Source of the DNA: Streptomyces sp. NBC_00464
GTDB lineage: Bacteria > Actinomycetota > Actinomycetes > Streptomycetales > Streptomycetaceae
DNA: 64,000 nucleotides
Assembly: GCF_036013915.1 (NCBI RefSeq)
Contig: NZ_CP107899.1
Location: 2,170,001-2,234,000 of the forward strand
Direction of reading: 5' to 3'
Position numbers and translations under genes: made by a program. This document shows, one piece after another, positions 33,269 to 49,052 of the stretch. The notes under the pieces were generated by a model. It was not told the origin of the DNA. It was given only the letters and a program-made list of their open reading frames with translations, and did not search any database. How positions within the stretch are numbered: the first letter of the stretch is position 1; each line of letters begins with the position of its first letter.

Positions 33269-34855
33269 ATGAGGACCTCCCCTGCCCTGCGCGCCGCGGC
33301 CCTCGCCGGCGCCGTCACCGTGCTGCTTCCCCTCGCCGGCTGTTCGGACGGGGGTGGCGGGGAGAGCTCGCCCCACGCCGCCGGGACTGCCGCGACCACC
33401 ACCCCCGCCGGCCTCGCATCCCAGCAGCTGAAGTGGACGCCGTGCCCGGCACCTTCCCAGGCACAGGGCGGCGGAGCCTCGCCCTCCCCGCTGCCCGGCG
33501 GGGCCGTCTGGGAGTGCTCGTTCATGAACGTCCCGCTCGACTACGCGGAGCCGGAAGGCGACACCATCGAGCTGGCGCTCGTCCGCGCGAAGGCGATGGA
33601 CGCGAAGAAGCGGATCGGTTCGCTCATCTTCAACTTCGGCGGCCCCGGCGCCTCCGGTGTCGCCACCCTGCCCGCCTTCGGTACGGAGTACGACAAGCTC
33701 CGCACCCGCTACGACCTGGTGAGCTTCGATCCGCGCGGAGTCGGCCGCAGCGCGGGCGTGGAGTGCGAGGACGACGCGCAGCTGGACGCGCGGTACGAGG
33801 GCGACGGCACGCCCGACGACGCGGCGGAGGAGAAGGCGTTCACCGAGGACACGAAGACGTATGCGGACGCCTGCGAGAAGAACTCGGGCAAGGAGCTCCC
33901 CTTCGTGGGGACGACGAACGCCGCCCGCGACATGGACCTGATGCGTCAGGTGCTCGGCGACGACAAGCTGTACTACTTCGGCATCTCGTACGGAACCGAA
34001 CTGGGCGGCGTCTACGCGCACTTGTTCCCCGGACACGTCGGCAGATCGGTCCTGGACGCGGTGGTCGACCCGACCGAGGACGCGGAGCAGTCCTCCCTCG
34101 GCCAGGCCAAGGGCTTCCAGCTCGCCCTGGACAACTTCGCCGCGGACTGCGTGGACCGGGGCGACGCCTGCAAGCTGCCCGGTGCCACCGCCGAGGAGGT
34201 CGAACAAGGAGTGTCCGGCCTCCTCGACCGGCTGGAGAAGAAGCCCGTACCGGGCATCGGTTCCCGGAAGCTGACGCAGACGCAGGCCACCACCGGCATC
34301 GCGGCGGCGCTCTACTCCAAGGAGACCTGGCCCCTGCTGGAGCAGGGTGTGGACGAGGCGGACGGCGGCAACGGCGCGCTGCTCCTCGCTCTCGCGGACT
34401 CCCTCAACGGGCGCTCCGAGGACGGCCACTACGACAATTCCGCCGCGGCCAACACCGCCATCAACTGCGCGGACTCCAAGGAGCGTTTCACCCTCGACCA
34501 GACCAAGGCGAAGCTTCCCGCGCTCCACGACGCCTCACCGGTCTTCGGCGACTACCTCGGCTGGGGCCTGATGGCGTGCACCGGCTGGCCGGTGGCGGGC
34601 GCCTGGGACACCCCGGACGTCAGCGCCGGGGGCGCGGCGCCCGTCCTGGTCATCGGCAACACCGGTGACCCGGCGACTCCGTACGCGGGCGCGAAGGCGA
34701 TGGCCGAGGAACTGGGCGAGGGCGTCGGCGTGGAGATGACGTACAAGGGCGAGGGCCATGGCGCGTACAACAGCGGCAGCGCCTGTGTGCAGAAGGCGGT
34801 GGGCGGCTACCTCCTGGACGGAAAGGTGCCGGCCGACGGGACGGTCTGCGGATAG
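33269..34855 (+). CDS. Secreted S33-family hydrolase lipoprotein (tripeptidyl aminopeptidase-like), copy 1
   Basis: A 528-residue alpha/beta hydrolase exported as a lipoprotein: hydrophobic signal ending in lipobox LAGC (C~26), then a Gly/Ser linker. Catalytic machinery: oxyanion loop NFGGPGASG, nucleophile GISYGTELGG, acid in IGNTGDPATPY and His in GEGHGAY, with the typical S33 C-terminal VPADGTVCG. Resembles Streptomyces SlpD/SlpE and Tap aminopeptidases. ATG at 33269. Followed 73 nt later by a paralogue, so the pair arose by tandem duplication. Confidence 0.9.
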   Translation: MRTSPALRAAALAGAVTVLLPLAGCSDGGGGESSPHAAGTAATTTPAGLASQQLKWTPCPAPSQAQGGGASPSPLPGGAVWECSFMNVPLDYAEPEGDTIELALVRAKAMDAKKRIGSLIFNFGGPGASGVATLPAFGTEYDKLRTRYDLVSFDPRGVGRSAGVECEDDAQLDARYEGDGTPDDAAEEKAFTEDTKTYADACEKNSGKELPFVGTTNAARDMDLMRQVLGDDKLYYFGISYGTELGGVYAHLFPGHVGRSVLDAVVDPTEDAEQSSLGQAKGFQLALDNFAADCVDRGDACKLPGATAEEVEQGVSGLLDRLEKKPVPGIGSRKLTQTQATTGIAAALYSKETWPLLEQGVDEADGGNGALLLALADSLNGRSEDGHYDNSAAANTAINCADSKERFTLDQTKAKLPALHDASPVFGDYLGWGLMACTGWPVAGAWDTPDVSAGGAAPVLVIGNTGDPATPYAGAKAMAEELGEGVGVEMTYKGEGHGAYNSGSACVQKAVGGYLLDGKVPADGTVCG

Positions 34856-34928
34856 GCGTGCCGGCCCGCGCGCCTACCATGGGCGCGAACTGCCGGACGG
34901 GCAGGCACGATCGGGGAGGGACGTACAC

Positions 34929-36503
34929 GTGGTCGCATACGGACGGGCCGGGGCGCTGGCCGCCGCCGCACTGCTGCTGACGGGGGTGCTCGCGGGCTGC
35001 GAGGACGGCACGGACGACAAGCCGGGCAAGCGGGCGGACGGCGCCACGGCATCGGCGGCCTCGCCGTCCGCCGCCCCGTCGCCCGAGGAGAGCGCGAAGC
35101 CCCTGCCCACCTCCCTCACCTCGCAGCGCCTGGACTGGAACAGCTGCAAGGCCCCCGAGGGCGGCAGCGCCCCGGGCTCGGCCTGGCGCTGTACGACGGT
35201 CAAGGTCCCGCTCGACTACACGAAGCCGGACGGCGACACGATCGGGATCGCGCTCATCCGCAAGGAGGCCCGGAGCAAGGGCCGGCGGCTCGGCTCGATG
35301 CTGTTCAACTTCGGCGGTCCCGGCGGCTCGGGCGTCTCCATCCTGCCGCGCGCCGCCGGTTCGTACGGGGCCCTCAACACCCGCTACGACCTGGTGGGTT
35401 TCGATCCGCGCGGGGTGGCCGGGAGCGCCGGGGTGCGGTGCCGCACGGACCAGGAGCAGGAGATCTCCTACCGGAAGGTCGACATGACGCCGGACACCGC
35501 GGCCGAGGAGTCGGCGTTCATGAAGGACGGCGCCGGCTTCGGCGCGGGCTGCGAGCGCCGCTCCGGCAAGGTCCTGCCGTTCGTCGGCACGACGAACGCC
35601 GCCCGGGACATGGATCTGATCCGCGAGGTCCTCGGCGACAAGAAGCTGACGTACTTCGGCATGTCGTACGGCACCGAGCTGGGCGGCACCTACGCGCACC
35701 TCTTCCCGGCGAAGGTCGGTCGCACCGTCTTCGACGCCGTCGTCGACCCGACCGCGGACTCCACCGGTCACGCCCGGAACCAGGCCACCGGCTTCCAGCG
35801 GGCACTGGAGAACTACCTCAAGGACCGCGGCCAGGACCCCGCGAAGGGGACGCAGCGCATCGCCGCGCTGCTGAAGCGGATCGACGCCAAGCCACTGCCG
35901 ACCGGTACGGGCCGCGAGCTCAACGAGTCGCTGGCGATCACCGGCATCGTGATGCCGCTCTACTCCAAGGACGGCTGGCCGACGCTCACGCAGGCCCTGG
36001 ACGAGGCGGAGAGCGGCACCGGCTCCATGCTGCTGCAGCTCGCCGACTCGTACAACGGCCGTGACGAGAACGGCCGTTACGACACCCAGAACCACTCGCA
36101 GCGCGCCATCTCCTGTGCGGACAGCAAGGCCAGGCCGACGGCGGCCGAGGCGAAGGCGCTGCTGCCCGAGTTCAAGAAGCTGTCCCCGGTCTTCGGCCCG
36201 TTCCTGGCCTGGGACACCGCGGGCTGGTGCTCCGACTGGCCGGTGGCGGGCGAGCACGACACTCCGGAGGCGAGCGCTCCGGGCGCCGGTCCGATCCTGG
36301 TCGTGGGGACCACGGGCGACCCGGCGACGCCGTACGAGGGTGCGCGCAAGATGGCGGACGAGCTCGGCAAGGGTGTCGGCGTCCTGCTCACCAACAAGGG
36401 CGAGGGACACGGCGCCTACGGCGTGAGCAGCTGTGTGACGTCGACGGTGGACAACTACTTCCTGGACGGGAAGGTGCCGGCGGACGGCAAGACCTGCTCG
36501 TAG
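34929..36503 (+). CDS. Secreted S33-family hydrolase lipoprotein (tripeptidyl aminopeptidase-like), copy 2
   Basis: A 524-residue paralogue of the preceding gene. Lipoprotein signal VAYGRAGALAAAALLLTG with lipobox LAGC, then a charged linker. Motifs: NFGGPGGSG, nucleophile GMSYGTELGG, acid VGTTGDPATPY, His GEGHGAY, C-terminal VPADGKTCS. The GTG at 34929 is preceded by GGGGAGGGA 8 nt upstream; the longer in-frame ORF starts inside the neighbour's end and is not used. A bidirectional terminator follows. Confidence 0.9.
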   Translation: MVAYGRAGALAAAALLLTGVLAGCEDGTDDKPGKRADGATASAASPSAAPSPEESAKPLPTSLTSQRLDWNSCKAPEGGSAPGSAWRCTTVKVPLDYTKPDGDTIGIALIRKEARSKGRRLGSMLFNFGGPGGSGVSILPRAAGSYGALNTRYDLVGFDPRGVAGSAGVRCRTDQEQEISYRKVDMTPDTAAEESAFMKDGAGFGAGCERRSGKVLPFVGTTNAARDMDLIREVLGDKKLTYFGMSYGTELGGTYAHLFPAKVGRTVFDAVVDPTADSTGHARNQATGFQRALENYLKDRGQDPAKGTQRIAALLKRIDAKPLPTGTGRELNESLAITGIVMPLYSKDGWPTLTQALDEAESGTGSMLLQLADSYNGRDENGRYDTQNHSQRAISCADSKARPTAAEAKALLPEFKKLSPVFGPFLAWDTAGWCSDWPVAGEHDTPEASAPGAGPILVVGTTGDPATPYEGARKMADELGKGVGVLLTNKGEGHGAYGVSSCVTSTVDNYFLDGKVPADGKTCS

Positions 36504-36572: not shown

Positions 36573-37751
36573 CTAGTACACCGGCTTCTCGGGCTCGATC
36601 GTGTTGACCCAGCCGATCACGCCGCCGCCGACGTGCACCGCGTCGGCGAAGCCCGCCGACTTGAGGACCGCGAGGACCTCGGCGCTGCGGACACCGGTCT
36701 TGCAGTTCAGGACGATGCGCCTGTCCTGAGGGAGGTCCTGGAGGGCGTTGCCCATCAGGAACTCGTTCTTCGGGATCAGCTTGGCGCCGGGGATCGAGAC
36801 GATCTCGAACTCGTTCGGCTCACGGACGTCGATCAGCTCGATCTTCTCGTCCGCGTCGATCCACTCCTTGAGCTGCTTGGGAGTGATCGTGGAGCCGAGC
36901 GCCGCCTCCTGGGCCTCCTCGGACACGACGCCGCAGAAGGCCTCGTAGTCGATGAGCTCGGTGACGGTCGGGTTCTCACCGCAGACCGCGCAGTCGGGGT
37001 CCTTGCGGACCTTGACCTGGCGGTACTGCATCTCCAGCGCGTCGTAGATCATCAGCCGGCCGACGAGCGGGTCGCCGATGCCGGCGAGCAGCTTGATGGC
37101 CTCGTTGACCTGGATGGAGCCGATGGACGCGCAGAGCACGCCCAGGACACCGCCCTCGGCGCAGGACGGAACCATGCCGGGGGGCGGCGGCTCCGGGTAG
37201 AGGCAGCGGTAGCAGGGACCGTGCTCGGACCAGAAGACGGACGCCTGGCCGTCGAAACGGTAGATGGAACCCCAGACGTACGGCTTGTTCAGGAGCACCG
37301 CGGCGTCGTTGACGAGATAGCGGGTGGCGAAGTTGTCCGTGCCGTCCACGATCAGGTCGTACTGGGCGAAGATCTCCATCACGTTCTCGGCTTCGAGCCG
37401 TTCCTCGTGAAGGATCACGTTCACCAGCGGGTTGATGCCCAGCACCGAGTCCTTGGCGGACTGGGCCTTGGACCGGCCGATGTCGGCCTGGCTGTGGATG
37501 ATCTGGCGCTGCAGGTTCGACTCGTCGACCTCGTCGAACTCCACGATGCCGAGCGTTCCGACACCGGCGGCGGCCAGGTACATCAGCGCCGGCGAGCCGA
37601 GACCGCCGGCGCCCACACAGAGCACCTTCGCGTTCTTCAGCCGCTTCTGCCCGTCCATCCCGACATCCGGGATGATCAGGTGGCGGGAGTACCTGCGGAC
37701 CTCGTCGACGGTGAGCTCAGCAGCTGGCTCGACCAGGGGTGGCAGCGACAC
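36573..37751 (-). CDS. moeZ: Adenylyltransferase/sulfurtransferase MoeZ (MoeB + rhodanese)
   Basis: A 392-residue two-domain sulfur carrier activator. N-terminal MoeB/ThiF domain: ATP site GAGGLGSPAL, R-finger region and catalytic segment, with zinc-binding CYRC and CAVC pairs. C-terminal rhodanese domain with active-site loop CKTGVRS, carrying the persulfide. It adenylates and thiocarboxylates MoaD/ThiS/CysO-type carriers for molybdopterin, thiamine or cysteine synthesis. GTG at 37751. A SigR-type promoter overlaps the end of the upstream spherulin gene, so it can be transcribed alone. Counterpart of Rv3206c. Confidence 0.95.
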   Translation of the reverse strand: MSLPPLVEPAAELTVDEVRRYSRHLIIPDVGMDGQKRLKNAKVLCVGAGGLGSPALMYLAAAGVGTLGIVEFDEVDESNLQRQIIHSQADIGRSKAQSAKDSVLGINPLVNVILHEERLEAENVMEIFAQYDLIVDGTDNFATRYLVNDAAVLLNKPYVWGSIYRFDGQASVFWSEHGPCYRCLYPEPPPPGMVPSCAEGGVLGVLCASIGSIQVNEAIKLLAGIGDPLVGRLMIYDALEMQYRQVKVRKDPDCAVCGENPTVTELIDYEAFCGVVSEEAQEAALGSTITPKQLKEWIDADEKIELIDVREPNEFEIVSIPGAKLIPKNEFLMGNALQDLPQDRRIVLNCKTGVRSAEVLAVLKSAGFADAVHVGGGVIGWVNTIEPEKPVY

Positions 37752-37817: not shown

Positions 37818-37843
37818 AACACTGCCACGCCCCCTCTCATTCC
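37818..37843 (-). promoter_or_regulatory. SigR-type promoter of moeZ
   Basis: Read leftward: GGAAT (37843-37839), 18-nt spacer, GTT (37820-37818), matching GGAAT-N18-GTT. The GGAAT overlaps the stop codon of the spherulin-4 gene. The start would be near 37811, giving a ~60-nt leader before the moeZ GTG. Confidence 0.65.
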
Positions 37844-38679
37844 GAGATACCAGGTCCGATCCGCGAGACGATTTCGTCCCAGTACCTGGGCAGAGTCGCG
37901 AATGGATCGCTTTGTCCCCGCCCGTTTCCGGGATCCGCCTCTCCGCTGCGGTCCGTGAAGAAGATCGTCCCGGCACCCTGCCAGCGGGCGATGCGCATCG
38001 CCTCCTCCAGATGGGTACGCGGGACACCGTGGACGAAGTGGGCGAAACGGCCGGGCGGATAGGCGGCGGTCCACTCCGCCACCTGCGACCAGCGGTAGTC
38101 GGTCCACGCGCCGCGGAAGGTGACGAGCTGGTCGGCGGCCTCCGCGTAACCCGGATACGGATGGGTGTCGTGCCCGAGCACGAGACGCCCGCCGTACTGC
38201 GCACTGTCGCTGTCCGCCAGGAGGGCGGAGAGGGTGCTGGTGAGACGGCGTACGGCCGGGAGGTCGGGGCGCCCGGCCGGACAGCGGTTCAGATAGAAGC
38301 CGTCGACGCGGTACCAGTCCAGGTAGGACCGCGCGTCGGCGACCAGATCGCCGAAGGGGCGGCTGCCGTGGGCCAGGTCGAGCCGGCCGAGCAGCCGTCC
38401 GGCCGAGGCCCGCACGGAGTCGAACGGTTCCTCGCCGTGCACGGCCCGTTCGCGGGCGTTGCGGAGCCGGCCCGCGGCTTCCAGGCAGTGCGGGTCGGGG
38501 CGGCTGCCGGGGCCGTTGTCGATGTCGAGGACGGCCCAGTGCAGCGGTGTGCCGGGGCGGGCGAGTTCGGCCCATTCGACCGGTGCGAGCAGCGGGTGCG
38601 CGTACCCGGGGACGCCGAAGCCGAGCTGTTCGGCGCCGCTGGTGCGACGGGCGGTGCCGGTACTGGTCAGATACGGCAC
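37837..38679 (-). CDS. Spherulin-4 (Sph3-like, GH135-type) glycoside hydrolase
   Basis: A 280-residue TIM-barrel protein of the spherulin-4 family (GVPGYAHPLL, WAVLDIDNGPG, SYLDWYRVDGFYLNRCP, TDYRWSQV, FAHFVHGV). Fungal Sph3, a GH135 enzyme, cleaves galactosaminogalactan and is required for its synthesis. There is no signal peptide, so action may be cytoplasmic or by another route. The GTG at 38679 overlaps the epimerase gene end by 13 nt and has GGAGG 4 nt upstream: clear translational coupling in a four-gene leftward operon. Confidence 0.85.
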   Translation of the reverse strand: MPYLTSTGTARRTSGAEQLGFGVPGYAHPLLAPVEWAELARPGTPLHWAVLDIDNGPGSRPDPHCLEAAGRLRNARERAVHGEEPFDSVRASAGRLLGRLDLAHGSRPFGDLVADARSYLDWYRVDGFYLNRCPAGRPDLPAVRRLTSTLSALLADSDSAQYGGRLVLGHDTHPYPGYAEAADQLVTFRGAWTDYRWSQVAEWTAAYPPGRFAHFVHGVPRTHLEEAMRIARWQGAGTIFFTDRSGEADPGNGRGQSDPFATLPRYWDEIVSRIGPGISE

Positions 38680-39632
38680 GCCGCCTCCATCCAGATGTCG
38701 GCGAGGGACTCCTCCAGATTGATCCGGGGCCGCCAGCCGAGCCGGTCCCTGGCGGTGCGCACGTCGGCCTGCTGCCAGGCACCGCAGCCGTCCGGGTAGG
38801 GGGACGGGGTGACCGCGAGGTGTTCCATGACCGATTCGGCGGAGGTGCGCGGGGCGCCGATGGGCAGGCGCGCGGGAGGCGTGTCCAGCTCATGGAGAGC
38901 ACCCGCGTATCCGGCGACCTTGGCGAGGACGGCCGCGGCGTCGCGCAGGCGCACGGCCCGGCCGGTGCCGATGTTGACGACTCCCTGTGCGGCGGAGAGC
39001 GAGGCCGCGTGCACGGCGCGTGCGACATCGCGCACGTCGACGAAGTCACGCTGTACACCGAGGCCGCTGAGCTTCAGCTCACCGTCGCCCGACTGCATGG
39101 CGCGTCGCATGGCCTCGGCGAGCCGGCCGAGCGGGGAGCCGGCCGGAGTGCCGGGGCCGACCGGCGAGAACACCCGGAGCACGATCGCGTCGAGGCCGGA
39201 GCCGAGGACGAGTTCGGTGGCGGCGAGCTTGCTGACACCGTACGGGCCGCCGGGGCGCGGGATGGCGTCCTCGGCCGTGGACGAGCCGGGCTGCGAAGGT
39301 CCGTACTCCGAGGAGCAGCCGACCTGGACCAGCCGGGCGGTGCAGCCGCTGCGCCGCATCGCCTCGCAGACGGTGGCGACGGCGACGGTGTTGTGACGGG
39401 TCAGGTCGCGGGCCCCGCCCCGGGTGGCACCGGCGCAGTTGACGACGACTCCGGGGTGGACGGCGTCCAGGAAGCGGGTGAGCGCTCCGGGGCTGCCGCC
39501 GGCGAGGTCGAACCGTACGTCGGCGTCGTCGCCGCGGCCGAGCGCCGTGAGGTGGACGGCGGGGTCGGCGAGCAGCCGGTCGGCCACGAACCGGCCGAGG
39601 AATCCGTTGGCTCCGAGCAGCAGCACCCTCAT
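38667..39632 (-). CDS. NAD-dependent sugar epimerase/dehydratase (extended SDR)
   Basis: A 321-residue extended SDR. Glycine motif GANGFLGRFVAD at the N-terminus, catalytic Ser region QVGCSSEYG and intact YGVSK (YxxxK), NAD-sugar epimerase text VFSPVGPG and DFVDVRDVARAV. It probably makes an activated hexose or hexosamine for the adjacent glycosyltransferase. ATG at 39632 with GAGGGG 7 nt upstream. Third gene of the polysaccharide-like operon. Confidence 0.9.
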   Translation of the reverse strand: MRVLLLGANGFLGRFVADRLLADPAVHLTALGRGDDADVRFDLAGGSPGALTRFLDAVHPGVVVNCAGATRGGARDLTRHNTVAVATVCEAMRRSGCTARLVQVGCSSEYGPSQPGSSTAEDAIPRPGGPYGVSKLAATELVLGSGLDAIVLRVFSPVGPGTPAGSPLGRLAEAMRRAMQSGDGELKLSGLGVQRDFVDVRDVARAVHAASLSAAQGVVNIGTGRAVRLRDAAAVLAKVAGYAGALHELDTPPARLPIGAPRTSAESVMEHLAVTPSPYPDGCGAWQQADVRTARDRLGWRPRINLEESLADIWMEAACRI

Positions 39633-39771
39633 CGCGCGTCCCCTCGGTGCCGACGGCGGGCTGCCGGTGCGGGGTATTGGGGGGTCATGTCCGGTGTCTC
39701 CTTGGGGCAGTTGTGTGCGGTACGGGAAGAGGCCCGCGGCGTCGGCTCCACGGGGGTTCTGGTGTGCGGGA

Positions 39772-41577
39772 TCAGGCGGCGGTGTGGGCGGATGCCCGGG
39801 AGAGGGCGACGGTGGCGGTGGTCAGCAGGCCGAGGGCGGCCGCGCCGCAGGCGACAGCGGGCACGGCCCCGGTGCCCGCCGCCGCGACGAGCGCGTCGAC
39901 GGGGCGGGCGAGGGCGTCGAGGCCGGGCAGCCGCCCGGCCAGGACGAGGGCGGGGGCGGCGGCCTCGACGGCACAGGCTGCGGCGAGGCCGGTGGCGGCC
40001 GGTTCGGGGAAGCCGTGGACGGTGAGGAGGCGGGCGAGCAGAAGCAGCACGCCCAGTGCCGCGGCCCCGACGGGGGATCCGCCTGAGCCGATCCCGAGCC
40101 CGGCCAGGTACAGCAGCCCGCCGAGGACGCAGAGGAAGAAGGCGACAGCGGCGAACAGCAGGGGGCGCACACCTGCGGCGAACTCCTCCAGCGCACGGCT
40201 GCCGTTGAGTTTGCGGTGCGCGTGTACGGAGAAGAGGTGGGCGCACCAGGCTGCGGGAGCGACCGCCACGGCGAGGCCGAGCAGCGGCGCCGGGGTGATG
40301 TCCCAGGGGCCTTCGGGGCCGCCGCTGAGGACCTGGTGGAGCAGCGCGTCGCCGTACAGGACGTAGCCGAGCAGCCAGCAGCCGAACAGGCCGGCGGCGC
40401 CCGACGAGCGGCCGTCGGCGCAGAGGGGGCCGGTACGCAGGGCGAGTGCGAGCCCGATGAGCGCGAGGAGACCGCCGCCGGTGCCGATGGCGAGCCGCGC
40501 CCCGCCGTCGAGCACCCCCTCAGTGAGCCGCAGCGCGACGAAGGTCGCGAGACAGGCGGCGCCCGGCAGCAGGGCCCGGAGCGACCACGCGGCGCGCGTC
40601 TCGATGTCGCGCGCCGGGGTGCAGGACGCGTCCACGGGCTCCCCCGCGACAGCCGGGACCCGTGCGAACAGCTCCTCGGCCAGCGAGAACACGTCGCGGT
40701 GCCGGTAGCGGGCTGCGGTGCGGTCGGTGACTCCGTGGGCCTCGAGCCCGGCGGCGATCTCCAGCGGGTCGACGGCACGTTCGCAGAGCTCACGGTGCCG
40801 GTGCATCAGGGATTTCACGGGATCGGCGGGCCCGCGCCGCCCGGTGGCGAGTTTGCGCGCAGGAGCCGCGTGGGCGACCTCGGGAGCGCGGGGGGTGGGG
40901 CGCTGTGCGGGGGTGTCGGGGGGCGTCGGGTCTGCCGGGCCTGCCTCGCCTGCCGGGCCTGCCGGGCCTGCCGGGCCTGCCGAGTTTGTCGAGTCCAAGG
41001 GGGGCGCCGAGCCCGGCGATCGGTGCTCGGGGGCGGGGGGCATGGCAGGCGCCTCGTCCTCGGGGTCGGGGTCGAGGGATGCGTCGTCGACGTCCTCGCG
41101 GTCGGGGGATGCGTCGTCGACGGCTTCGGGGGGTGCGGGGGGCGCGGGGGGCGCGGGGGGCGCGGGGGGCGCGGGGCTGGAGGTCGGCTCGGGCGCGGCG
41201 GACGGGGCGTGCGCGGGCGCGGCGCCGTCTGGGCGTGGCCCGCTCCCGGCGTCGTCCAGCGGCACGCTCTCCGCCCCGTGCGGCGGCGCGCTCCCGGCAA
41301 CGTCCGGTGATGCGCTCTCCGCCCCGTCCAGCGGGGCGGCGGACAGCCCCCACGCCGGTTCGGAGACGTCCGCGAGCAGGGTGCCGGAGGCCGACGCCCA
41401 TGAGCGGTGGTCCCCGTTGCTGCTGGTCATCGGCGTTCCGAGCGCCTCGGGCACTTCGGTCGGGCGGCCCATCCTCGTTCCTCCGTGCTCGTCACCCAGG
41501 GCAGCGATCGCGCCGGGTGCACCGGTCGGTCCCGGTCGGTTCGTGCGGCCCGGCGCGGCCGGCTCCTGGTCACGCAT
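39772..41577 (-). CDS. Polytopic membrane protein with long Pro/Ala-rich cytoplasmic N-terminus
   Basis: A 601-residue protein. About 230 disordered residues rich in Pro, Ala, Asp and Gly are followed by a short folded segment (RHRELCERAVDPLEIAAGL ... YRHRDVFSLAEELFARV) and roughly eight TM helices. No family is recognised; by position it could be the export or scaffold partner of the PelF-like glycosyltransferase (PelG analogue), but it is shorter than PelG and this is inference. The ATG at 41577 overlaps the glycosyltransferase stop by 8 nt (ATGCGTGA) with GGGGGA 5 nt upstream. Confidence 0.75.
   Translation of the reverse strand: MRDQEPAAPGRTNRPGPTGAPGAIAALGDEHGGTRMGRPTEVPEALGTPMTSSNGDHRSWASASGTLLADVSEPAWGLSAAPLDGAESASPDVAGSAPPHGAESVPLDDAGSGPRPDGAAPAHAPSAAPEPTSSPAPPAPPAPPAPPAPPEAVDDASPDREDVDDASLDPDPEDEAPAMPPAPEHRSPGSAPPLDSTNSAGPAGPAGPAGEAGPADPTPPDTPAQRPTPRAPEVAHAAPARKLATGRRGPADPVKSLMHRHRELCERAVDPLEIAAGLEAHGVTDRTAARYRHRDVFSLAEELFARVPAVAGEPVDASCTPARDIETRAAWSLRALLPGAACLATFVALRLTEGVLDGGARLAIGTGGGLLALIGLALALRTGPLCADGRSSGAAGLFGCWLLGYVLYGDALLHQVLSGGPEGPWDITPAPLLGLAVAVAPAAWCAHLFSVHAHRKLNGSRALEEFAAGVRPLLFAAVAFFLCVLGGLLYLAGLGIGSGGSPVGAAALGVLLLLARLLTVHGFPEPAATGLAAACAVEAAAPALVLAGRLPGLDALARPVDALVAAAGTGAVPAVACGAAALGLLTTATVALSRASAHTAA
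40935..41175. repeat. Two short tandem-repeat tracts in the membrane-protein gene
   Basis: Near 40940-40985 a 9-bp unit GGGCCTGCC encodes an (A-G-P)n stretch, and near 41130-41172 a 9-bp unit GGCGCGGGG encodes a (P-A-P)n stretch. Both keep the frame and sit in the disordered N-terminal region. Confidence 0.8.
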
Positions 41578-43453
41578 CGCCGTCCCCCGCGCCGCACGCT
41601 CCCGCGCCGACGCCCTGCACGGCCCAGCTGGGCGTCCGCCCGGCCGGACCCGGGTCGGATTCGGAGTCGTCTCCCGGCGCCGGCCACAGACCGAGGACGT
41701 GAGCCTCCGGCGGGGTGGCGAAGGGGCGCGGCCCGCCGTCGGCGGCCCGCGCCGCCTCCCTGCGCACCGGCGCCTGCGAGATCAGCTCCAGGTAAATGCC
41801 GCGAAATGCCGCGAGGTTCTGTTCGACAGTGAAAAGTTCGAGTGCACGGGCGCGCGCCGCCGCTCCCAGGCGCGCACGGCGCTCCGGGTCGCGCAGCAGA
41901 GCCAGGCAGGCGTCCGCGAGCGCCCGCGGATTGCGCGGGGGCACCACCAGTCCCGTACCGCCGATGACCTCGACGACCGCGCCGACGTCCGTGGACACCG
42001 TCGCCCGGCCGCAGAACATCGCCTCGACCAGACTGATCGGGAAGCCCTCGACCACGCTGGAGAGCACCACCACCCCGCCCGCCGCGTACGCCTGGACGAG
42101 ATCGGGGACCTCGGCCCCGCCGATGTCCTCGAAGGACACCGGGCTGTCGCCGACGGCGTGCGCGTCCACGGCCTCGTCGGGGAACAACTGGTCAGCGAGC
42201 GCCCGGCAGTGGGCGAGATAACCGGCGCCTTCCGCCCCCTGGGCCGCCGCACCGATGATGCGCAGCCGGGCGTCGGGCTCGGCCCTGCGCACCTCGGCGA
42301 AGGCGTGCAGCAGAGCGATCAGGTCCTTGGCCGGCTCGATCCGGCCGACCCAGACCAACGTGTCCGGGCCACCGTCGTCCTCGCTCTCGCCGAGCGCCGC
42401 GAAGCGGCCGGACTCCATGCCGGGATAGACCGTGCGCACCTTGGCGGGTTCGGCGCCGCAGCGCTCCTGCCAGCGGCGGGCGTGGGTGTTGCCGGGGGTG
42501 ATCAGCGCGGCCTGCCGGTACACCTCGGCGGCGAGCCGCCCGTGGAAGTTCGCGAGCAGCGTGCGTACCGGCGCACTCACCGGCGCACCGGTGTCCGCGA
42601 GGTAGTGGGCGCGCAACTGCACGGCGTGCTCGGTGACGAGCAGCGGCACCCCGAAGAAGCGCTTGGCCAGCAGCCCCGGCAGTGCGGCGGCGCCGCCCGA
42701 CGCGGCATGGCAGAGATCGACGGCGCCGAGGCTCTCCTCGTCGTACCAGTCGAGGGAGAGCGGGCGCAGCACCCGGTCGAGCTCCGCGGCGAAGGCGAGG
42801 AGATCGGGGACGGTGGCGGACTGGACGGTGCGTCCGGTGCCATGGGCGCGGCAGGCGGCCTCGAGGATCCGCACCGCGGTCTCGGAGCGGAGGGCGGCGG
42901 GAAGTCCACCGTGCTCGCAGGCCAGTTCGGCGAGCCCGTAGAGGCCTTCGGTGAACTGCTCGTCCGCGATCCGCAGGTCCACTCCGGCCGGTGCCACACG
43001 GGCCGGGTCCACTCCGGCCGGTGCCACACGGGCCGGGTCCACGCCGGCGGCCCCGCCGCGACCGGCACCCTCGCCCGCGCCTTCCTGCTCGCCGCCCGTC
43101 GCACCCGCCACGCACACCGAGGCCGCGAGCGCCGTGAAGTGGGTGATGAAGCGCCGCCGTTCGCGCCGCCCGTACGTCCGTGCGCCCCCGCCGGTCAGCA
43201 ACCGCGAGAGCAGTCCTCTGGGGGCGTGGAGGCCGAGGGTGTCCTCGTCGGCGGTCCACAGGGGCGCCGTCCGCACCCGGCTGACCTGGACCGGGAGCTG
43301 CACCCAGCCCTGCGCCTCCTGCTCGGCGCTGCGGCTGAGCGCGAAGAGATCGAACTCGTGCTGCGCGAGCCCGCGCACCAGACGGTCGCACCAGAGTCTG
43401 GACTCACCGGACGCATACGGATAGCCACCGTCGGTGAGCAGTCCGATCCGCAC
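41570..43453 (-). CDS. GT4 glycosyltransferase with DUF3492 N-terminus (PelF-like)
   Basis: A 627-residue retaining GT-B enzyme. The N-terminal DUF3492 part (RIGLLTDGGYPYASGESRLW) is the signature of PelF, the transferase that polymerises Pel exopolysaccharide. The C-terminal GT4 domain has VWVGRIEPAKDLIALLHAF and the nucleotide-binding SSVVEGFPISLVEAMFCG with the EX7E pair. The middle holds a species-type insert with a 30-bp repeat. The GTG at 43453 starts the conserved N-terminus. First gene of the operon with membrane protein, epimerase and spherulin-4. Confidence 0.9.
   Translation of the reverse strand: MRIGLLTDGGYPYASGESRLWCDRLVRGLAQHEFDLFALSRSAEQEAQGWVQLPVQVSRVRTAPLWTADEDTLGLHAPRGLLSRLLTGGGARTYGRRERRRFITHFTALAASVCVAGATGGEQEGAGEGAGRGGAAGVDPARVAPAGVDPARVAPAGVDLRIADEQFTEGLYGLAELACEHGGLPAALRSETAVRILEAACRAHGTGRTVQSATVPDLLAFAAELDRVLRPLSLDWYDEESLGAVDLCHAASGGAAALPGLLAKRFFGVPLLVTEHAVQLRAHYLADTGAPVSAPVRTLLANFHGRLAAEVYRQAALITPGNTHARRWQERCGAEPAKVRTVYPGMESGRFAALGESEDDGGPDTLVWVGRIEPAKDLIALLHAFAEVRRAEPDARLRIIGAAAQGAEGAGYLAHCRALADQLFPDEAVDAHAVGDSPVSFEDIGGAEVPDLVQAYAAGGVVVLSSVVEGFPISLVEAMFCGRATVSTDVGAVVEVIGGTGLVVPPRNPRALADACLALLRDPERRARLGAAARARALELFTVEQNLAAFRGIYLELISQAPVRREAARAADGGPRPFATPPEAHVLGLWPAPGDDSESDPGPAGRTPSWAVQGVGAGACGAGDGDA
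42976..43035. repeat. 30-bp tandem duplication in the PelF-like gene
   Basis: Two perfect 30-bp copies (42976-43005, 43006-43035) and a third partial one encode repeated VDPARVAPAG in an insert of the glycosyltransferase. The unit is a multiple of 3, so the frame is kept. Confidence 0.85.
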
Positions 43454-43643: not shown

Positions 43644-45233
43644 TCAGGCTGCGGCCAGCTCCCTGCGGGCCGCGCGGCGCACCGCCGCGAGGGCCGGATC
43701 GAGGGCCGGCACGGCTGCCAGCAGCTGCCGGGTGTACGGGTCGCGGGGATCCGCGTACACCTGCTCCACCGGGCCCTCCTCGACGATCCGGCCCCGCCGC
43801 ATGACGGCGACCCGGTCACTGACCTGCCGTACGACAGCGAGGTCGTGCGCGATGAAGACCAGGGCGAGTCCGAGCTCCTGCTGGAGCTCCGCCAGCAGGG
43901 CGGTCACCTGGGCCTGGGTCGTCACGTCGAGCGCGGAGACCGCCTCGTCACAGACGATGAGCTCGGGTTCGGCGGCCAGGGCCCGCGCGATGCCGACGCG
44001 TTGGCGCTGGCCGCCGCTGAACTCGTGCGGGTAGCGGTCGTACTGCTCCGGGTCGAGTCCGACGCGCTCCAGCAGATCCCGTACGCGCGCCCTGATCGCT
44101 CCCTCGTCGCGCTGCCCGCGCGCCCGCAGCGGGTCGGCGACCGACTCCCCGACGGAACGGCGCGGGTTGAGCGAGGAGACCGGGTCCTGGAAGACCATCT
44201 GCACCCGGTCCACCCGGGTGAGCCGCCCGGAGGTGGGCTCCAGCAGACCGACGAGCATCCGCCCGAGGGTGGTCTTGCCGCTGCCGCTCTCACCGACGAT
44301 GCCGAGCGTCTCGCCGCGGCGGACGGTGAGGGAGACCCCGTCGACGGCGGCCAGGGCGGACTTCCCCCGGCCGAACACCTGCCGCACGTCCTCGGCCCGG
44401 ACCAGCACTTCTCCCTCGGGGGTCGCCTGCCGGCCCTCGCCGGTGGCGCCCCGCACCTCCGGGGCGATGCGCGGCACGGCTGACAACAGCGCCTTCGTGT
44501 ACGGCTCGCGGGGCGCGCCGAGCACCTCGGCCACCGGCCCGCGTTCCACGGCGCGGCCCGACCGCATGACGAGCACCTCGTCCACCGACTCGGCCGCCAC
44601 GCCCACGTCATGGGTGACCAGCAGCAGCCCCATGCCCGTCTCGCGGCGCAGGTCGTGCAGCAGGTCCAGGATCTGGGCCTGGACGGTGACGTCCAGCGCG
44701 GTCGTCGGCTCGTCGGCGATCAGCAGCTGGGGCTCGCAGGCCAGCGCCATCGCGATCAGGGCCCGCTGCCGCATACCGCCGGAGAACTCGTGCGGCCGGG
44801 ACCGGGAGCGGCGTACCGCGTCGGGGATCCCGACCCGGTCCAGCACCTCGACGGCCCTGGCCCGCCCGGCCCGCCGGGAGACACGGTGGTGGACCCGGTA
44901 CACCTGGGCGATCTGGTCGCCGACCGCGTAGTACGGGTCCAGCGAGGAGAGGGGGTCCTGGAAGACCATCGCGGCCTTCGCCCCCCGCATCCCGCGCAGT
45001 TCGGCGCCCCCGGCGGCCTGGACGTCCACGCCGGCGACCCGGATCGAGCCGCCGACCTTCGCACCGGTCCCCCGGTGCAGTCCGAGCAGGGCGTACGCCG
45101 AGGCGCTCTTGCCGGAGCCGGACTCGCCGACGACGCCGAGCGCGCCACCCGCCTCCAGCGAGAACGACAGTCCGCGCACCGCGTGCACGTCGCCGAACGA
45201 GATGGAGAGATCGGTGACCTCGACCAGACTCAT
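43644..45233 (-). CDS. Peptide-type ABC transporter, fused double ATPase (DppD-DppF-like)
   Basis: A 529-residue protein with two complete nucleotide-binding domains. NBD1: [14 protein letters not shown], signature EFSGGMRQR, Walker [16 protein letters not shown]2: [38 protein letters not shown]. Both belong to the oligopeptide/nickel importer class. It energises the two permeases encoded upstream; ATG at 45233 overlaps the permease stop as ATGA. Last gene of a five-cistron unit that begins with a Cys-rich leader peptide. Confidence 0.93.
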
Positions 45234-46219
45234 GAGAGCACCACCCGTCGGTCGGCCATCGCCTGGAGGATGTCGGCGACGGCATTGGCAAGGACGACGA
45301 AGAATCCGGTGACGAGCACCAGACCGACGACGACCGGGAGGTCCACCTGCTTGACGGCCTCCACGAGTTCGCGGCCGACGCCGGGAATCCCGAAGAGGGA
45401 CTCGGTGAGCACGGCGCCGCCGAACATCGAGCCGACATCGAGTGCGCCGAGTGCGATCACCGGGGCCAGCGCGCCGCGCAGGGCGTGCCGTCCGACGATC
45501 GTCCGCTCGCCGACGCCGTACGCCCTGAAGGTGCGCACATGGTCCTCGGCGAGCGTCTCCAGCATCGAGGCCCGGGTCATCCGGGCGTACGGGGCTGCGG
45601 AGATGAGCGCGAGCGAGATCCAGGGCAGCAGCAGGTTCCAGGCCCACTGCTCCGGGTTCTCGGTGAGGGGGACGTAGTCGGGGAACGGCAGGATCTGAAG
45701 CGCCGTGACGCAGATGATGATCAGCAGCAGCCCGATCACGAAGACGGGCGTGGCCATGCCGGCCAGGGTGATCCCGGTGAGGATGCGCTCGGTGACACGG
45801 CCGCGCCGCCACACCGAGAGCACCCCGGTGCCGACCCCGAGGACCATCCACAGCACGAACGCGCCGACGGCCAGCGAGGCGGTGGCGGGCAGCTTGGCGA
45901 CGATCAGCTGGGTGACCTGCTGACCGCTCTGGTACGAGAGTCCCAGGCACGGGGCCTGGCAGTGCACCACACCGGTTCCGGTGGAGTAGTCGCGGCCGGC
46001 GACCAGGGCCTGGAGGAAGTGCGCGTACTGCACGTACACCGGGTCGCCGAGACGCAATTGCTCGCTGACCTGGGCGACCTGCGCGGGCGAGCAGCGCGGT
46101 CCGCAGGCGATCTGCGCCACGTTGCCGGGGGCGACGTAGAAGGCGGCGTAGACGACGACGCTCAGGGCGAGAAGGACGAACAGCGCCCCGCCCAGGCGTC
46201 GCAGCAGGAACCCGCTCAT
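45230..46219 (-). CDS. ABC peptide transporter permease (DppB-like)
   Basis: A 329-residue permease with an N-terminal TM, a periplasmic loop with two Cys-containing segments (QIACGPRCSP, VHCQAPCLG) and five further TMs; the EAA-type loop is ALRGALAPVIALGAL. Forms the channel with the DppC-like subunit. ATGA overlaps on both sides tie it to its neighbours. Confidence 0.92.
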   Translation of the reverse strand: MSGFLLRRLGGALFVLLALSVVVYAAFYVAPGNVAQIACGPRCSPAQVAQVSEQLRLGDPVYVQYAHFLQALVAGRDYSTGTGVVHCQAPCLGLSYQSGQQVTQLIVAKLPATASLAVGAFVLWMVLGVGTGVLSVWRRGRVTERILTGITLAGMATPVFVIGLLLIIICVTALQILPFPDYVPLTENPEQWAWNLLLPWISLALISAAPYARMTRASMLETLAEDHVRTFRAYGVGERTIVGRHALRGALAPVIALGALDVGSMFGGAVLTESLFGIPGVGRELVEAVKQVDLPVVVGLVLVTGFFVVLANAVADILQAMADRRVVLS

Positions 46220-47199
46220 GCTCCGGCCTCCTTCTTGGCGCCGGTGCCGATCCGCAGCCGGGATGCGGCGCGCGGGTCGAGTGCGGTGCGCACGCCCTCG
46301 CCGAGGACGGTGAGCGCCAGCACGGTGACGAAGAGCAGCAGGGCCGGGATGAGCAGATAGGTGGGCGCCGCCTGGTACCAGGTGTCGGCGTCGCTGAGCA
46401 TCTGTCCCCAGGACGGCGTGGGCGGCTTGATGCCGACGCCGAGGAAGGACAGGGCCGCCTCGACGACGATGTTGCCGGGGAAGAGCAGGACGGCGTATGT
46501 GATGACGGGCGCGGCCAGGGCGGGCAGCAGTTCGCGCCGGGCGATCTGCCAGGAGCCCCAGCCGCTGAGCCGGGCGGCCGCGACGTGGTCGCGCGACTTG
46601 AGGGACAGGGTCTGCGCGCGCACGATCTTCGAGATGCCGGACCAGCCGACCAGGCCGACGATGACGGAGATCAGCACCGGGCGGGGGAAGCCTGCCGGGA
46701 CGACGGCGAGCGCGCCGAGCGCGGTCACCATCACCGGCAGGGCAACCACGACGTCGGTGATCCGGCTCAGCGCCTGGTCGACGAAGCGGTTGCCGAGGCC
46801 GGCCGAGAGGCCGATGACGACACCGATGGCCACCTGGAGCAGGGTCGCTCCGAGCGCGACGCCGAGCGAGACGCGGGCGCCGTAGGCGACGCGGGCGAAC
46901 AGGTCGCGGCCGGTGAGCGGTTCGACGCCGAGCCAGTGCTCGGCGCTGATCCCGCCGAAGGAGCCGAGCGGCACCCCGCCGGTGGCCGAGTCGACGAGGT
47001 CGGGGTGGTACGTGGTGGGGTTCTGGCCCTCGATGCCCGTGAGCAGGGGTGCGGCGAGCGCGAGGAGGACCAGCAGGGCGACGACGGCCGCCGCCACGAG
47101 GGCGGCGCGGCGGGCGCGCAGCCGCCGCCAGAACGGATGGGCCCCGGGGGCGGGGGCCCGGACGGCCCCCGCCTCCTGGACCAGCAGTGCTTCGGCCAT
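46216..47199 (-). CDS. ABC peptide transporter permease (DppC-like)
   Basis: A 327-residue permease. Cytoplasmic N-terminus, TM near residues 32-52, then a periplasmic segment and five TMs; EAA loop RRELLPALAAPVITYAVLL followed by EAALSFLGVGIKPPTPSWG, typical of DppC/OppC. Starts 2 nt after the binding-protein stop and overlaps the next permease as ATGA. Confidence 0.93.
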   Translation of the reverse strand: MAEALLVQEAGAVRAPAPGAHPFWRRLRARRAALVAAAVVALLVLLALAAPLLTGIEGQNPTTYHPDLVDSATGGVPLGSFGGISAEHWLGVEPLTGRDLFARVAYGARVSLGVALGATLLQVAIGVVIGLSAGLGNRFVDQALSRITDVVVALPVMVTALGALAVVPAGFPRPVLISVIVGLVGWSGISKIVRAQTLSLKSRDHVAAARLSGWGSWQIARRELLPALAAPVITYAVLLFPGNIVVEAALSFLGVGIKPPTPSWGQMLSDADTWYQAAPTYLLIPALLLFVTVLALTVLGEGVRTALDPRAASRLRIGTGAKKEAGA

Positions 47200-47201
47200 G
47201 G

Positions 47202-48929
47202 CTACTTGACCGCGACCTGCGAGATGTCGAGCACGCCGGTCCAGTCGCTGATCACGACGTTCTTCACGGACTCGCCGTACAGGCGCTTGTAGACCGGGTG
47301 GAACAGCGGCACGGTCAGCGCCTGCTCACCGACCTTCTTGTCGAGCGCACCCCAGCGCTTGGCGGCGGCGCCCAGGTCGGTCAGCTTGTTGATCTCGTCG
47401 ATCTCCTTGTTGACCGCGGGGTCGTCGAACTGGGCGGAGTTGAAGTTGTACCCGGCCTTGACGATCTGGCGTCCGTCGAAGATCGGGGCGAAGAACGGAC
47501 CGCCGGAGGGCCAGTCGGCACCCCAGCCGCCGAGGAAGAAGCCGGGCTCGGTCTTCACGTTGTAGACGGTGTCCGAGTAGGCGTTGTTCTCCAGGCCCTG
47601 GAGCTTGACCGTGATGCCGGCCTTCTTCAGCGCCTCCTGGAGCGCGGTGGCGATCTCCGGGCTCGTCTCGAAGTTCTTGTCGTTGTTGTGCGTGAGGGTG
47701 ACGGTCAGCCCCTTGGGATAACCGGCCTCCTTCAGCAGCTCCTTGGCCTTGGCCGCGTTGCCGTTCTTGCCTGCCGGGAAGGAGTCGTACGGCGTGTAGC
47801 CGAAGGATGCCTGGTCGGGCAGGAAGGTGGTGGCGGGCTCGGCGAGCGAGGAACCGCCGGCGGCGTTGACCACGGAGGTGCGGTCGACGGCGTACGAGAT
47901 GGCCTGACGCACCTTCGGGTTGTCGAACGGCTTCACCTTCGGGTTGAAGGCGATGTAGTTCGTGTAGCCGAAGTGGCCGGTGCCGACGCGGGCTGCGAGC
48001 TTCTTGTCGCCGCTGACCTTGGCGAGCTCGGCCGGGCCGAGGTTGGTGTCGGTGGTGACGGCCGCGGCGTCGGCGCCCTGCGAGGCGGACAGCCGCTGGT
48101 TGATGACGGCGGAGTCGAGCCCGGAGCGGACGTCGATCCGGTCCGGGTAGGCCTTGCGCTCCTCGTCGGTGGCGGCCGACCAGTGCGTGTTGCGCTCCAG
48201 GATGAGCCGTTCGCCGTCGCCCTCGTTCTTGACGACCTTGTACGGCCCCGAGGAGAGCGGGTGCTCCTCGTACTTCGTGCCGGTGTCCTTGGCCTTCGGC
48301 ACCGGGGTGGTCTGGGTCTGGGTGGCCAGGAAGGGGAACTCGCCCTCGGGCTTGTTGAGGTGGAAGACGATCGTCTTCGCGTCGGGCGTCTCGATCGAGT
48401 CGAGGCCCTTCTTGTCCTTGTACGGGCCCTGGTAGTCGGCCCCGCCGATCAGCCAGTCACGCAGGTAGGGCGCACCGCCGGAGAGCTCTGCGGCGAAGGA
48501 GCGCTCGATGCCGTACTTGATGTCGGCACTCGTGATCGCGGTGCCGTCCTCGTACTTGATGCCGTCCTTGAGGGTGTACGTCCAGACGGTGGCGTTCTTG
48601 CTGGGCGTGCCCAGGTCGGTCGCCAGGTCGGGGACGACCTTCGAGCCCGCGGCGCCGTCCTCCCGGTTGCGGGTGGTGAGCGTACGGAAGACGAGGGAGG
48701 GGACGTTGCCGCCGCCGGAGGTGTAGAGCCGTGCGGGGTCGAAGTCGTCCTGCGGGGCGCTGTTGAGGACGGTGAGCGTGCCGCCCTTCTTGGGCGCGCC
48801 CGTTGCGCCGGAGGCGCCGTCGCTGCCCTTGCTGCTGCCCTCGGGTCCGCAGGCCGCGGCGCCCGCTGCCACAAGGAGTACTGCGGCGGCCGCTGCTGTG
48901 CGGCGCGATATGACGGACGGATGACGCAT
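47202..48929 (-). CDS. Family 5 extracellular peptide-binding lipoprotein
   Basis: A 575-residue solute-binding lipoprotein: signal TAAAAAVLLVAAGAAACG with lipobox AAAC (C~27), Ser/Gly linker and an SBP_5 domain (GGTLTVLNSAPQDDFDP, VFRTLTTRNREDG, FNPKVKPFDNPKVRQAISYAVDR). It captures the substrate for the importer encoded downstream. ATG at 48929 with AGAGG 9 nt upstream. The Cys-rich leader ORF 225 nt upstream suggests a sulfur-containing ligand such as a cysteine peptide or glutathione; this is inference. Confidence 0.93.
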   Translation of the reverse strand: MRHPSVISRRTAAAAAVLLVAAGAAACGPEGSSKGSDGASGATGAPKKGGTLTVLNSAPQDDFDPARLYTSGGGNVPSLVFRTLTTRNREDGAAGSKVVPDLATDLGTPSKNATVWTYTLKDGIKYEDGTAITSADIKYGIERSFAAELSGGAPYLRDWLIGGADYQGPYKDKKGLDSIETPDAKTIVFHLNKPEGEFPFLATQTQTTPVPKAKDTGTKYEEHPLSSGPYKVVKNEGDGERLILERNTHWSAATDEERKAYPDRIDVRSGLDSAVINQRLSASQGADAAAVTTDTNLGPAELAKVSGDKKLAARVGTGHFGYTNYIAFNPKVKPFDNPKVRQAISYAVDRTSVVNAAGGSSLAEPATTFLPDQASFGYTPYDSFPAGKNGNAAKAKELLKEAGYPKGLTVTLTHNNDKNFETSPEIATALQEALKKAGITVKLQGLENNAYSDTVYNVKTEPGFFLGGWGADWPSGGPFFAPIFDGRQIVKAGYNFNSAQFDDPAVNKEIDEINKLTDLGAAAKRWGALDKKVGEQALTVPLFHPVYKRLYGESVKNVVISDWTGVLDISQVAVK

Positions 48930-49052
48930 CGGAAGATGACCTCTCGGAGTACTGCCTGAATGAGGGAAACGGAAGGTGATTCCGCGCAGGCGGCGACGAG
49001 AGGCATGTGCACACGACCGGTCGGAACGAGTAAGGGTGACCGGAACACTGGA

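Follow-up and report, generated by a model that had tools for sequence, protein, structure and literature searches.

A PelF/spherulin locus of Streptomyces as a probable reduced descendant of an Agd3-type exopolysaccharide operon

A 64,000-nucleotide stretch from Streptomyces sp. NBC_00464 (contig NZ_CP107899.1; hereafter the window) carries a locus encoding a PelF-like GT4 glycosyltransferase (GT), a membrane protein, a short-chain dehydrogenase/reductase (SDR) and a spherulin-4 protein. We consider it probable, at roughly 0.6, that this locus arose by reduction of a complete Agd3-type (galactosaminogalactan/Pel-like) exopolysaccharide operon in the Streptomycetaceae and was repurposed as a non-secreting glycosylation complex. 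The proposal is built on gene order, homology, losses, the branching of gene trees and a ratio of non-synonymous to synonymous substitution rates (dN/dS) below 1 in the tested pairs.

As the initial annotation of this DNA had described, the four open reading frames (ORFs) are all present, collinear on the minus strand and tightly spaced. The GT stop overlaps the membrane-protein ATG by 8 nt, the gap from there to the SDR gene is 139 nt, and the SDR and spherulin genes overlap by 13 nt; the set is probably co-transcribed. It is flanked upstream by an ABC transporter operon and directly downstream, 85 nt past the spherulin gene, by a gene with ThiF and rhodanese domains that we take to be moeZ. 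Below, loci built like this (genes for a GT, a membrane protein and an SDR, in many cases one for a spherulin, and finally moeZ) are called type A and divided into the window's branch, A1, and a second branch with Kitasatospora among its members, A2. Paralogous operons at other genomic sites are types B and C; all three types occur together in one genome (G033).

Lost residues, missing helices and an intact SDR

The spherulin had been annotated as a spherulin-4 glycoside hydrolase without a signal peptide that may act inside the cell. The family and the missing signal stand, the hydrolase does not. The window copy itself gave no Pfam match and no related PDB match; a 92% identical protein (P0001) matches PF12138 at 53.7 bits (cut-off 30.2). 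A profile of nine full-operon spherulins recovers Aspergillus Sph3 (5c5g) at 1.6e-25 with its catalytic Asp and Glu aligned. The text of PMC12054363 available to us gives the roles of this pair and prints it as Asp196/Glu222; the aligned Asp counts as 166 when the numbering offset is fixed by Glu222. The window protein has Asn131 and Arg189 at these positions, and the loss of both acids largely rules out an active GH135 hydrolase; judged from the alignment, it is a catalytically dead pseudoenzyme.

The same replacement is seen across its relatives. The Asp/Glu pair is present in 75/75 full-operon rows of the alignment, and in the full operon beside moeZ described below (L018), versus 0/123 near relatives of the window spherulin, a sample drawn through P0001-P0120 as the closest of 1285 relatives. 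In a wider sample, which shares three rows with the first, it is present in 76/76 full-operon rows versus only one (L145) of 40 type-A rows. Glu is lost in 39 of these 40 and Asp retained in 32 (one fragment, L130, is gapped at Asp), so that Glu seems to have been lost first. Scaffold positions are retained, Gly151 and His175 (L015 numbering) among them, both in all 40. In a crude test for export signals, based on the most hydrophobic 14-residue stretch of the first 70 residues with a threshold of 1.9, the window spherulin scored 0.94 and showed no signal; equally, 0/37 spherulins from our second set of loci exceeded the threshold, a set that includes the type-B L147 and is separate from the window. 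Among type-B and type-C proteins, 5/67 spherulins, 50/75 Agd3-like proteins and 42/61 GH114 proteins scored above it. Across the full operons L029-L108 (e.g. L085:15786-16463) most of the pair-intact spherulins lack an export signal, and many of their genes begin at the stop codon of the SDR gene (a 4 nt overlap for 45 type-B and type-C spherulins), unlike the deacetylase and GH114 of the same operons, which mostly have signal-like starts; this would place a cytosolic GH135 in an export operon.

The membrane protein is likewise incomplete. Its full-length relative has a MOP fold with 12 transmembrane (TM) helices, and the window protein is that fold minus most of TM2-TM6, about four of twelve helices short, and without the two six-helix lobes of a MOP flippase. 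TM2, TM3, TM4 and TM6 are absent in 43/43 informative type-A rows, the forty-fourth (L024) being masked by a run of N that makes its apparent N-lobe an artefact; the TM5 columns are ambiguous (filled in 24/44) and TM8-TM12 are present in 44/44. The C-terminal MOP half and a conserved helical N-domain, presumably cytosolic, are retained in nearly all type-A rows. This alignment leaves out type-A proteins shorter than 281 aa (L017, L118, L132, L143), the A2 proteins of L152-L157 and four short full-operon proteins of 79. A second gene caller's model (P0121) gives 408 aa with a start at 40998, and tandem repeats form a low-complexity segment in the longer ORF. The annotated view that the protein is too short for PelG, which we take to be a MOP-type protein, is borne out. 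The PelG model PF16933 had no match in the source genome and matched 0/118 genomes of the class, with the control Thermotoga maritima matched in both searches; this rules out PelG membership. The membrane protein has no Pfam match, Foldseek with its model returned nothing at E <= 0.001, and its N-domain has no clear solved relative in the PDB by sequence.

The GT keeps more of its site in the window's branch. Scores of 86.7 bits for DUF3492 and 106.4 bits for the NCBIfam PelF model NF038011 (cut-off 100) confirm the annotated PelF-like family; the relative in L016 falls below that cut-off at 63.6 bits and a full-operon GT reaches 169.5 bits. The gene starts with GTG at 43453, with the frame open up to 43597. 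Residues R, K, E and E and the N-terminal GG loop, presumably the catalytic and binding positions of GT4 enzymes, were compared across the family. All four residues are kept in 81/81 full-operon GTs and in the window GT. The A1 branch (42 rows, L018 numbering) keeps R329, K334 and E411 in 41 rows each and E419 in 42, versus the A2 branch (12 rows), where 0/12 have R, K or the first E and 4/12 have the second E; by alignment, the A2 site is lost too, in 12/12. The GG loop is GG in 78/81 full forms (the other three are gapped), and its second Gly is Glu in the window and Asp/Glu in 26/27 scorable A1 rows, the remaining 15 of 42 being gapped by a late start from the gene caller. The His of the TEH motif has become Tyr in 38/42 A1 rows and is retained in the window GT. 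A GT fragment (L136) was left out of the alignment, and a locus search with the L018 GT as single protein found no relative. The tandem repeats at 42976-43048 form a low-complexity segment in the GT.

The SDR belongs to the superfamily of the annotated NAD-sugar epimerase, and its nearest solved relatives point elsewhere. The closest for both the window and the type-B SDR is the GDP-6-deoxy-lyxo-4-hexulose reductase 2pk3 (1.6e-20 for the window SDR), a 4-ketoreductase. With a score of 33.5 bits against the GalE equivalog TIGR01179 (cut-off 262.3), we reject an assignment to GalE; the enzyme looks more like the 4-keto-6-deoxysugar reductases. The YxxxK lysine is kept in 45/45 A1 and 12/12 A2 rows; on sequence evidence, the SDR is the only one of the four genes to be both intact and tightly constrained. 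The dehydratase function absent from the locus could be supplied from elsewhere in the genome. The source genome has 18 matches to the dehydratase model TIGR04180, the best at 151.7 bits (cut-off 475), a level that is superfamily noise because all 14 control genomes match too.

These results bear directly on the initial reading, a compact Pel/galactosaminogalactan operon whose spherulin would be an active hydrolase inside the cell and whose GalE-type epimerase would make UDP-GalNAc. The PelF score above cut-off and descent from a galactosaminogalactan-like operon speak for it, but the lost catalytic acids largely refute its hydrolase part, the SDR is closer to 4-ketoreductases than to GalE and no PelG was matched in the source genome or in 118 genomes of the class, and we regard the initial reading as very improbable.

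Table 1 Features of the locus and of its moeZ anchor (window positions).
Feature	Position	Strand	Basis or remark
moeZ (ThiF + rhodanese domains)	36573..37751	-	syntenic anchor; domains by domain search
Spherulin-4 (PF12138/GH135-like) putative pseudoenzyme without signal peptide	37837..38679	-	homology, alignment, hydrophobicity
Codon for Arg189, at Sph3 acid/base Glu position	38113..38115	-	alignment; codon counted by hand
Codon for Asn131, at Sph3 nucleophile Asp position	38287..38289	-	alignment; codon counted by hand
NAD(P)-dependent SDR	38667..39632	-	catalytic Y..SK and GxxGxxG intact; nearest solved relatives GDP-4-keto-6-deoxyhexose reductases
Membrane protein, 601-aa ORF	39772..41577	-	low-complexity N-terminus, conserved helical domain, then ~8 long helices
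Conserved 60-aa helical N-domain of membrane protein	40654..40833	-	common to full-length relatives; best PDB sequence match E 0.15
Pro/Ala-rich tandem repeats, variable N-terminus of membrane protein	40927..41338	.	repeat analysis
PelF-like GT4 glycosyltransferase (DUF3492 + GT4)	41570..43453	-	domain/family searches, alignment
30-bp tandem repeat in GT gene (length-variable linker)	42976..43048	.	repeat analysis

Probable reduction beside moeZ and constraint on the remaining genes

At E <= 1e-40, 81 of 101 Streptomycetaceae genomes matched the spherulin query and 89 matched the GT query, with paralogues mixed in. At the same threshold only 10 genomes of a class-wide draw of 118 matched, eight in the window's genus (source genome included) and two from other families. 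We fetched 20, then 40, then 12 stretches, picked from the matches and hence a non-random sample, and called genes with a simple codon-position scorer, which leaves start sites uncertain. Type-A loci occur in 13/17 Streptomycetaceae genus labels drawn, often with the spherulin missing. The 39 type-A loci of the second set (the fortieth, L147, is a full operon) contain moeZ in 39, the SDR in 39, the membrane protein in 38, the GT in 37 and the spherulin in 37, the last figure being an overestimate since the set was mostly picked by spherulin match. L140 lacks the GT because its contig begins at that point; in G010 (L144) the GT and membrane protein have been lost. The four genes are kept together in the loci examined, the spherulin being the least stable, so the lack of co-conservation that the initial annotation had named as refuting its reading was not observed.

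The paralogous operons are larger. Of 80 named loci, 46 are complete, with genes for an Agd3-like protein, GT, membrane protein, LegB-like dehydratase, nucleotidyltransferase, SDR, spherulin and GH114. The other 34 are subsets in unchanged order, one with two Agd3-like pieces and some (type C) without the three sugar-nucleotide genes; 11 of the 34 reach the end of their sequence stretch. Family scores in a full operon are 108.3 bits for the spherulin, 284.2 bits for GH114 and 448.5 bits for LegB (cut-off 475). The Agd3 label is remote: PF25115 was matched by 5/8 members (best 1.9e-6), the L015 protein scored 23.8 bits, under the cut-off of 27.6, and a PDB search with a profile of the Agd3-like proteins retrieved heparan N-deacetylase chains as the best matches (E 0.22) and no chain of Agd3. 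In L018 (9632-12524) and in type-B loci, genes for the LegB-like 4,6-dehydratase, the nucleotidyltransferase and the 4-ketoreductase-like SDR lie between membrane protein and spherulin. The presence of these three suggests that the type-B polymer perhaps contains a 6-deoxy-amino sugar rather than GalNAc, a suggestion that does not carry over to the window. Bacterial operons containing agd3 together with genes for a GT, membrane protein and GH114, and in some Actinobacteria also spherulin-4, were reported by Bamford et al. (2020, PMC7229062), whose account already covers types B and C in broad terms. The type-A locus beside moeZ was not seen in our searches of open-licence papers and is absent from PMC7229062 as far as that text was covered.

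A link between the two forms is found in one genome (G015), where a complete eight-gene operon (L018) adjoins moeZ with a single opposite-strand gene between them. The moeZ of L018 is 86% identical to that of the window over 371 aa. The L018 spherulin branches with type A (98/97), and in the GT and SDR trees a single branch separates L018 plus all type-A rows from the remaining rows (98/96 and 98/93, respectively). For these two trees, rows of L149-L151, from two genomes beyond the Streptomycetaceae, were added. Two long rows of the GT tree (L026, L158) may be joined falsely, and the sole outgroup row of the SDR tree is a very long branch. The GT, SDR, membrane protein and spherulin share descent with the Agd3-type cluster. 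Since one full operon occupies the moeZ site and three of its proteins (GT, SDR, spherulin) group with those of type A, the locus was likely reduced where it stands, the simplest reading of these sequences, with loss of the deacetylase, GH114, dehydratase and nucleotidyltransferase genes.

In 12 A1 pairs, simple pairwise counts of dN/dS, made with no statistical test, spanned 0-0.14 (SDR), 0-0.18 (moeZ), 0.14-0.32 (GT), 0.18-0.48 (spherulin) and 0.25-0.65 (membrane protein). In seven A2 pairs they were 0.06-0.27 for the SDR, 0.14-0.27 for moeZ, 0.32-0.53 for the site-less GT and 0.46-0.73 for the membrane protein. These values also bear on the idea that the locus is a functionless, decaying relic held in place only by its shared operon with moeZ. 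Stepwise gene and active-site losses across the family, the fast evolution of the membrane protein (up to 0.73), inner stops or split matches in some GTs and the gene losses of G010 would fit decay. However, dN/dS is below 1 for all genes in the 19 pairs, 0.73 being the highest value, the constraint on the SDR about equals that on moeZ, and loci of 13 genera have retained their reading frames since the sites were lost. We hold a relic without function to be improbable.

The upstream ABC transporter operon (43644-48959, with an oligo_HPY domain) has counterparts flanking the locus in L010, L016 and L028, and none in L009, L017 and L025. Past moeZ, on the opposite strand, two tandem related genes (33524-36503, 55% identical) look alpha/beta-hydrolase-like by eye only; relatives occur in L009 and L010. 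The source genome (8.96 Mb) has one spherulin match and, at E <= 1e-40, a single GT of the window's type (12/51 candidates scored). It also carries a lone GH114 gene (289 bits; G000:C1:5794626-5795483, L166:6627-7484), 3.6 Mb from the locus, with a lipoprotein-like start as judged by eye.

A possible membrane complex without export

In the complex that we propose, the PelF-like GT would sit on the cytosolic face of the membrane, tethered there by the shortened MOP-fold protein, which would no longer carry out alternating-access export. The SDR would supply or alter a nucleotide sugar, and the cytosolic dead GH135 protein might serve to bind the product or to stabilise the complex. The A1 GT might still transfer a single sugar, or a few, onto an acceptor bound to the membrane; we infer both acceptor and sugar. 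In the A2 branch, including Kitasatospora, where the GT site is lost, the SDR would be the sole possible catalyst. The intact SDR and the GT site kept in the window's branch point to some residual sugar transfer at the membrane. By gene content, trimming, deacetylation and dedicated export have gone from the locus, and the four genes are unlikely to secrete a galactosamine polymer on their own.

A contrasting possibility is a minimal working exporter of an acetylated amino-sugar polymer, in which a homodimer would rebuild a two-lobed MOP-like transporter and the GT would polymerise. It could draw on the GT4 site kept in the window's branch, on retention of the C-terminal MOP half and N-domain (TM8-TM12 in 44/44 rows) and on GT and membrane-protein genes occurring together in 37/39 A1 loci. 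But the homodimer is hypothetical, the locus has no trimming or deacetylating enzyme, and the operon partners of the SDR are gone. Furthermore, the membrane protein persists in at least 10/12 A2 loci despite the lost GT site, and so is kept without a working synthase. Such an exporter is in our view unlikely, if slightly less so than a relic.

Related species keep the genes together despite the lost active site and helices, which suggests a new job for the repurposed complex. We tentatively suggest that, in one family, a synthase/exporter has turned into a mostly non-catalytic membrane complex that selection maintains together with one intact SDR, possibly for a sensory or scaffolding role. 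If repurposing is correct, a single family would offer a series from full operon through loss of the spherulin Glu, a shortened exporter and loss of the hydrolase to a dead GT, and so trace step by step the conversion of a synthase complex into one of pseudo-enzymes. Automatic annotation would label the locus a PelF/epimerase/spherulin polysaccharide operon, and a gene-content search would predict a galactosamine biofilm, a prediction contradicted by the active-site and fold evidence. The locus is an easy gene-deletion target in model Streptomyces.

Comparison with known polysaccharide systems

With the MOP flippases (MATE, WzxE, MurJ) the full-length relative of the membrane protein shares its fold, but the window protein, which keeps TM1 and the C-terminal six helices, is without most of TM2-TM6. 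With the Gram-positive Pel operon pelDEADAFG, as given in the accessible text of Whitfield et al. (2020, PMC7112168), the locus has in common the PelF-family GT and, in its ancestor, a MOP-fold membrane protein. It differs in having no PelG by Pfam and a membrane protein about four helices short. None of PelA/PelADA, PelD or PelE is found in the window operon, a statement on the operon, as no genome-wide search with their models was made.

The Aspergillus fumigatus galactosaminogalactan cluster, uge3-sph3-gtb3-ega3-agd3 in the parts of PMC4817252 and PMC7229062 available to us, likewise combines an epimerase-superfamily enzyme, a glycosyltransferase and a spherulin-4 protein. Fungal Sph3 is, in the covered text of PMC12054363, membrane-bound and essential for the polymer, unlike the window spherulin, which is predicted to be cytosolic and has lost both catalytic acids; the mostly signal-less spherulin of full operons is also at odds with this fungal picture. 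The window locus, in contrast to the fungal cluster, has no deacetylase and no Ega3: no GH114 gene lies beside the GT, and no Agd3-like deacetylase was found in the locus. PF25115 had no match in the source genome either, but its control matched nowhere, so that absence from the whole genome is not established.

The closest known systems are the agd3-containing bacterial operons of types B and C (PMC7229062, as covered), which have the window's gene order and a paralogous GT4, membrane protein and spherulin, and in type B a paralogous SDR too. They mostly keep the Agd3-like deacetylase, GH114, the 12-TM membrane protein and the Asp/Glu spherulin, none of which the window locus has; type B also has the LegB-like dehydratase and nucleotidyltransferase, both missing from the window locus. 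With a dead hydrolase, a shortened exporter, a lost deacetylase, two lost sugar-nucleotide genes and a ketoreductase-like 'epimerase', the window locus is not the minimal synthase of both kinds that had been annotated. The annotated link to Pel and galactosaminogalactan holds as ancestry, for its closest full operons join clear Sph3 and Ega3 counterparts and a remote Agd3 counterpart with a PelF-like GT and a MOP-fold membrane protein.

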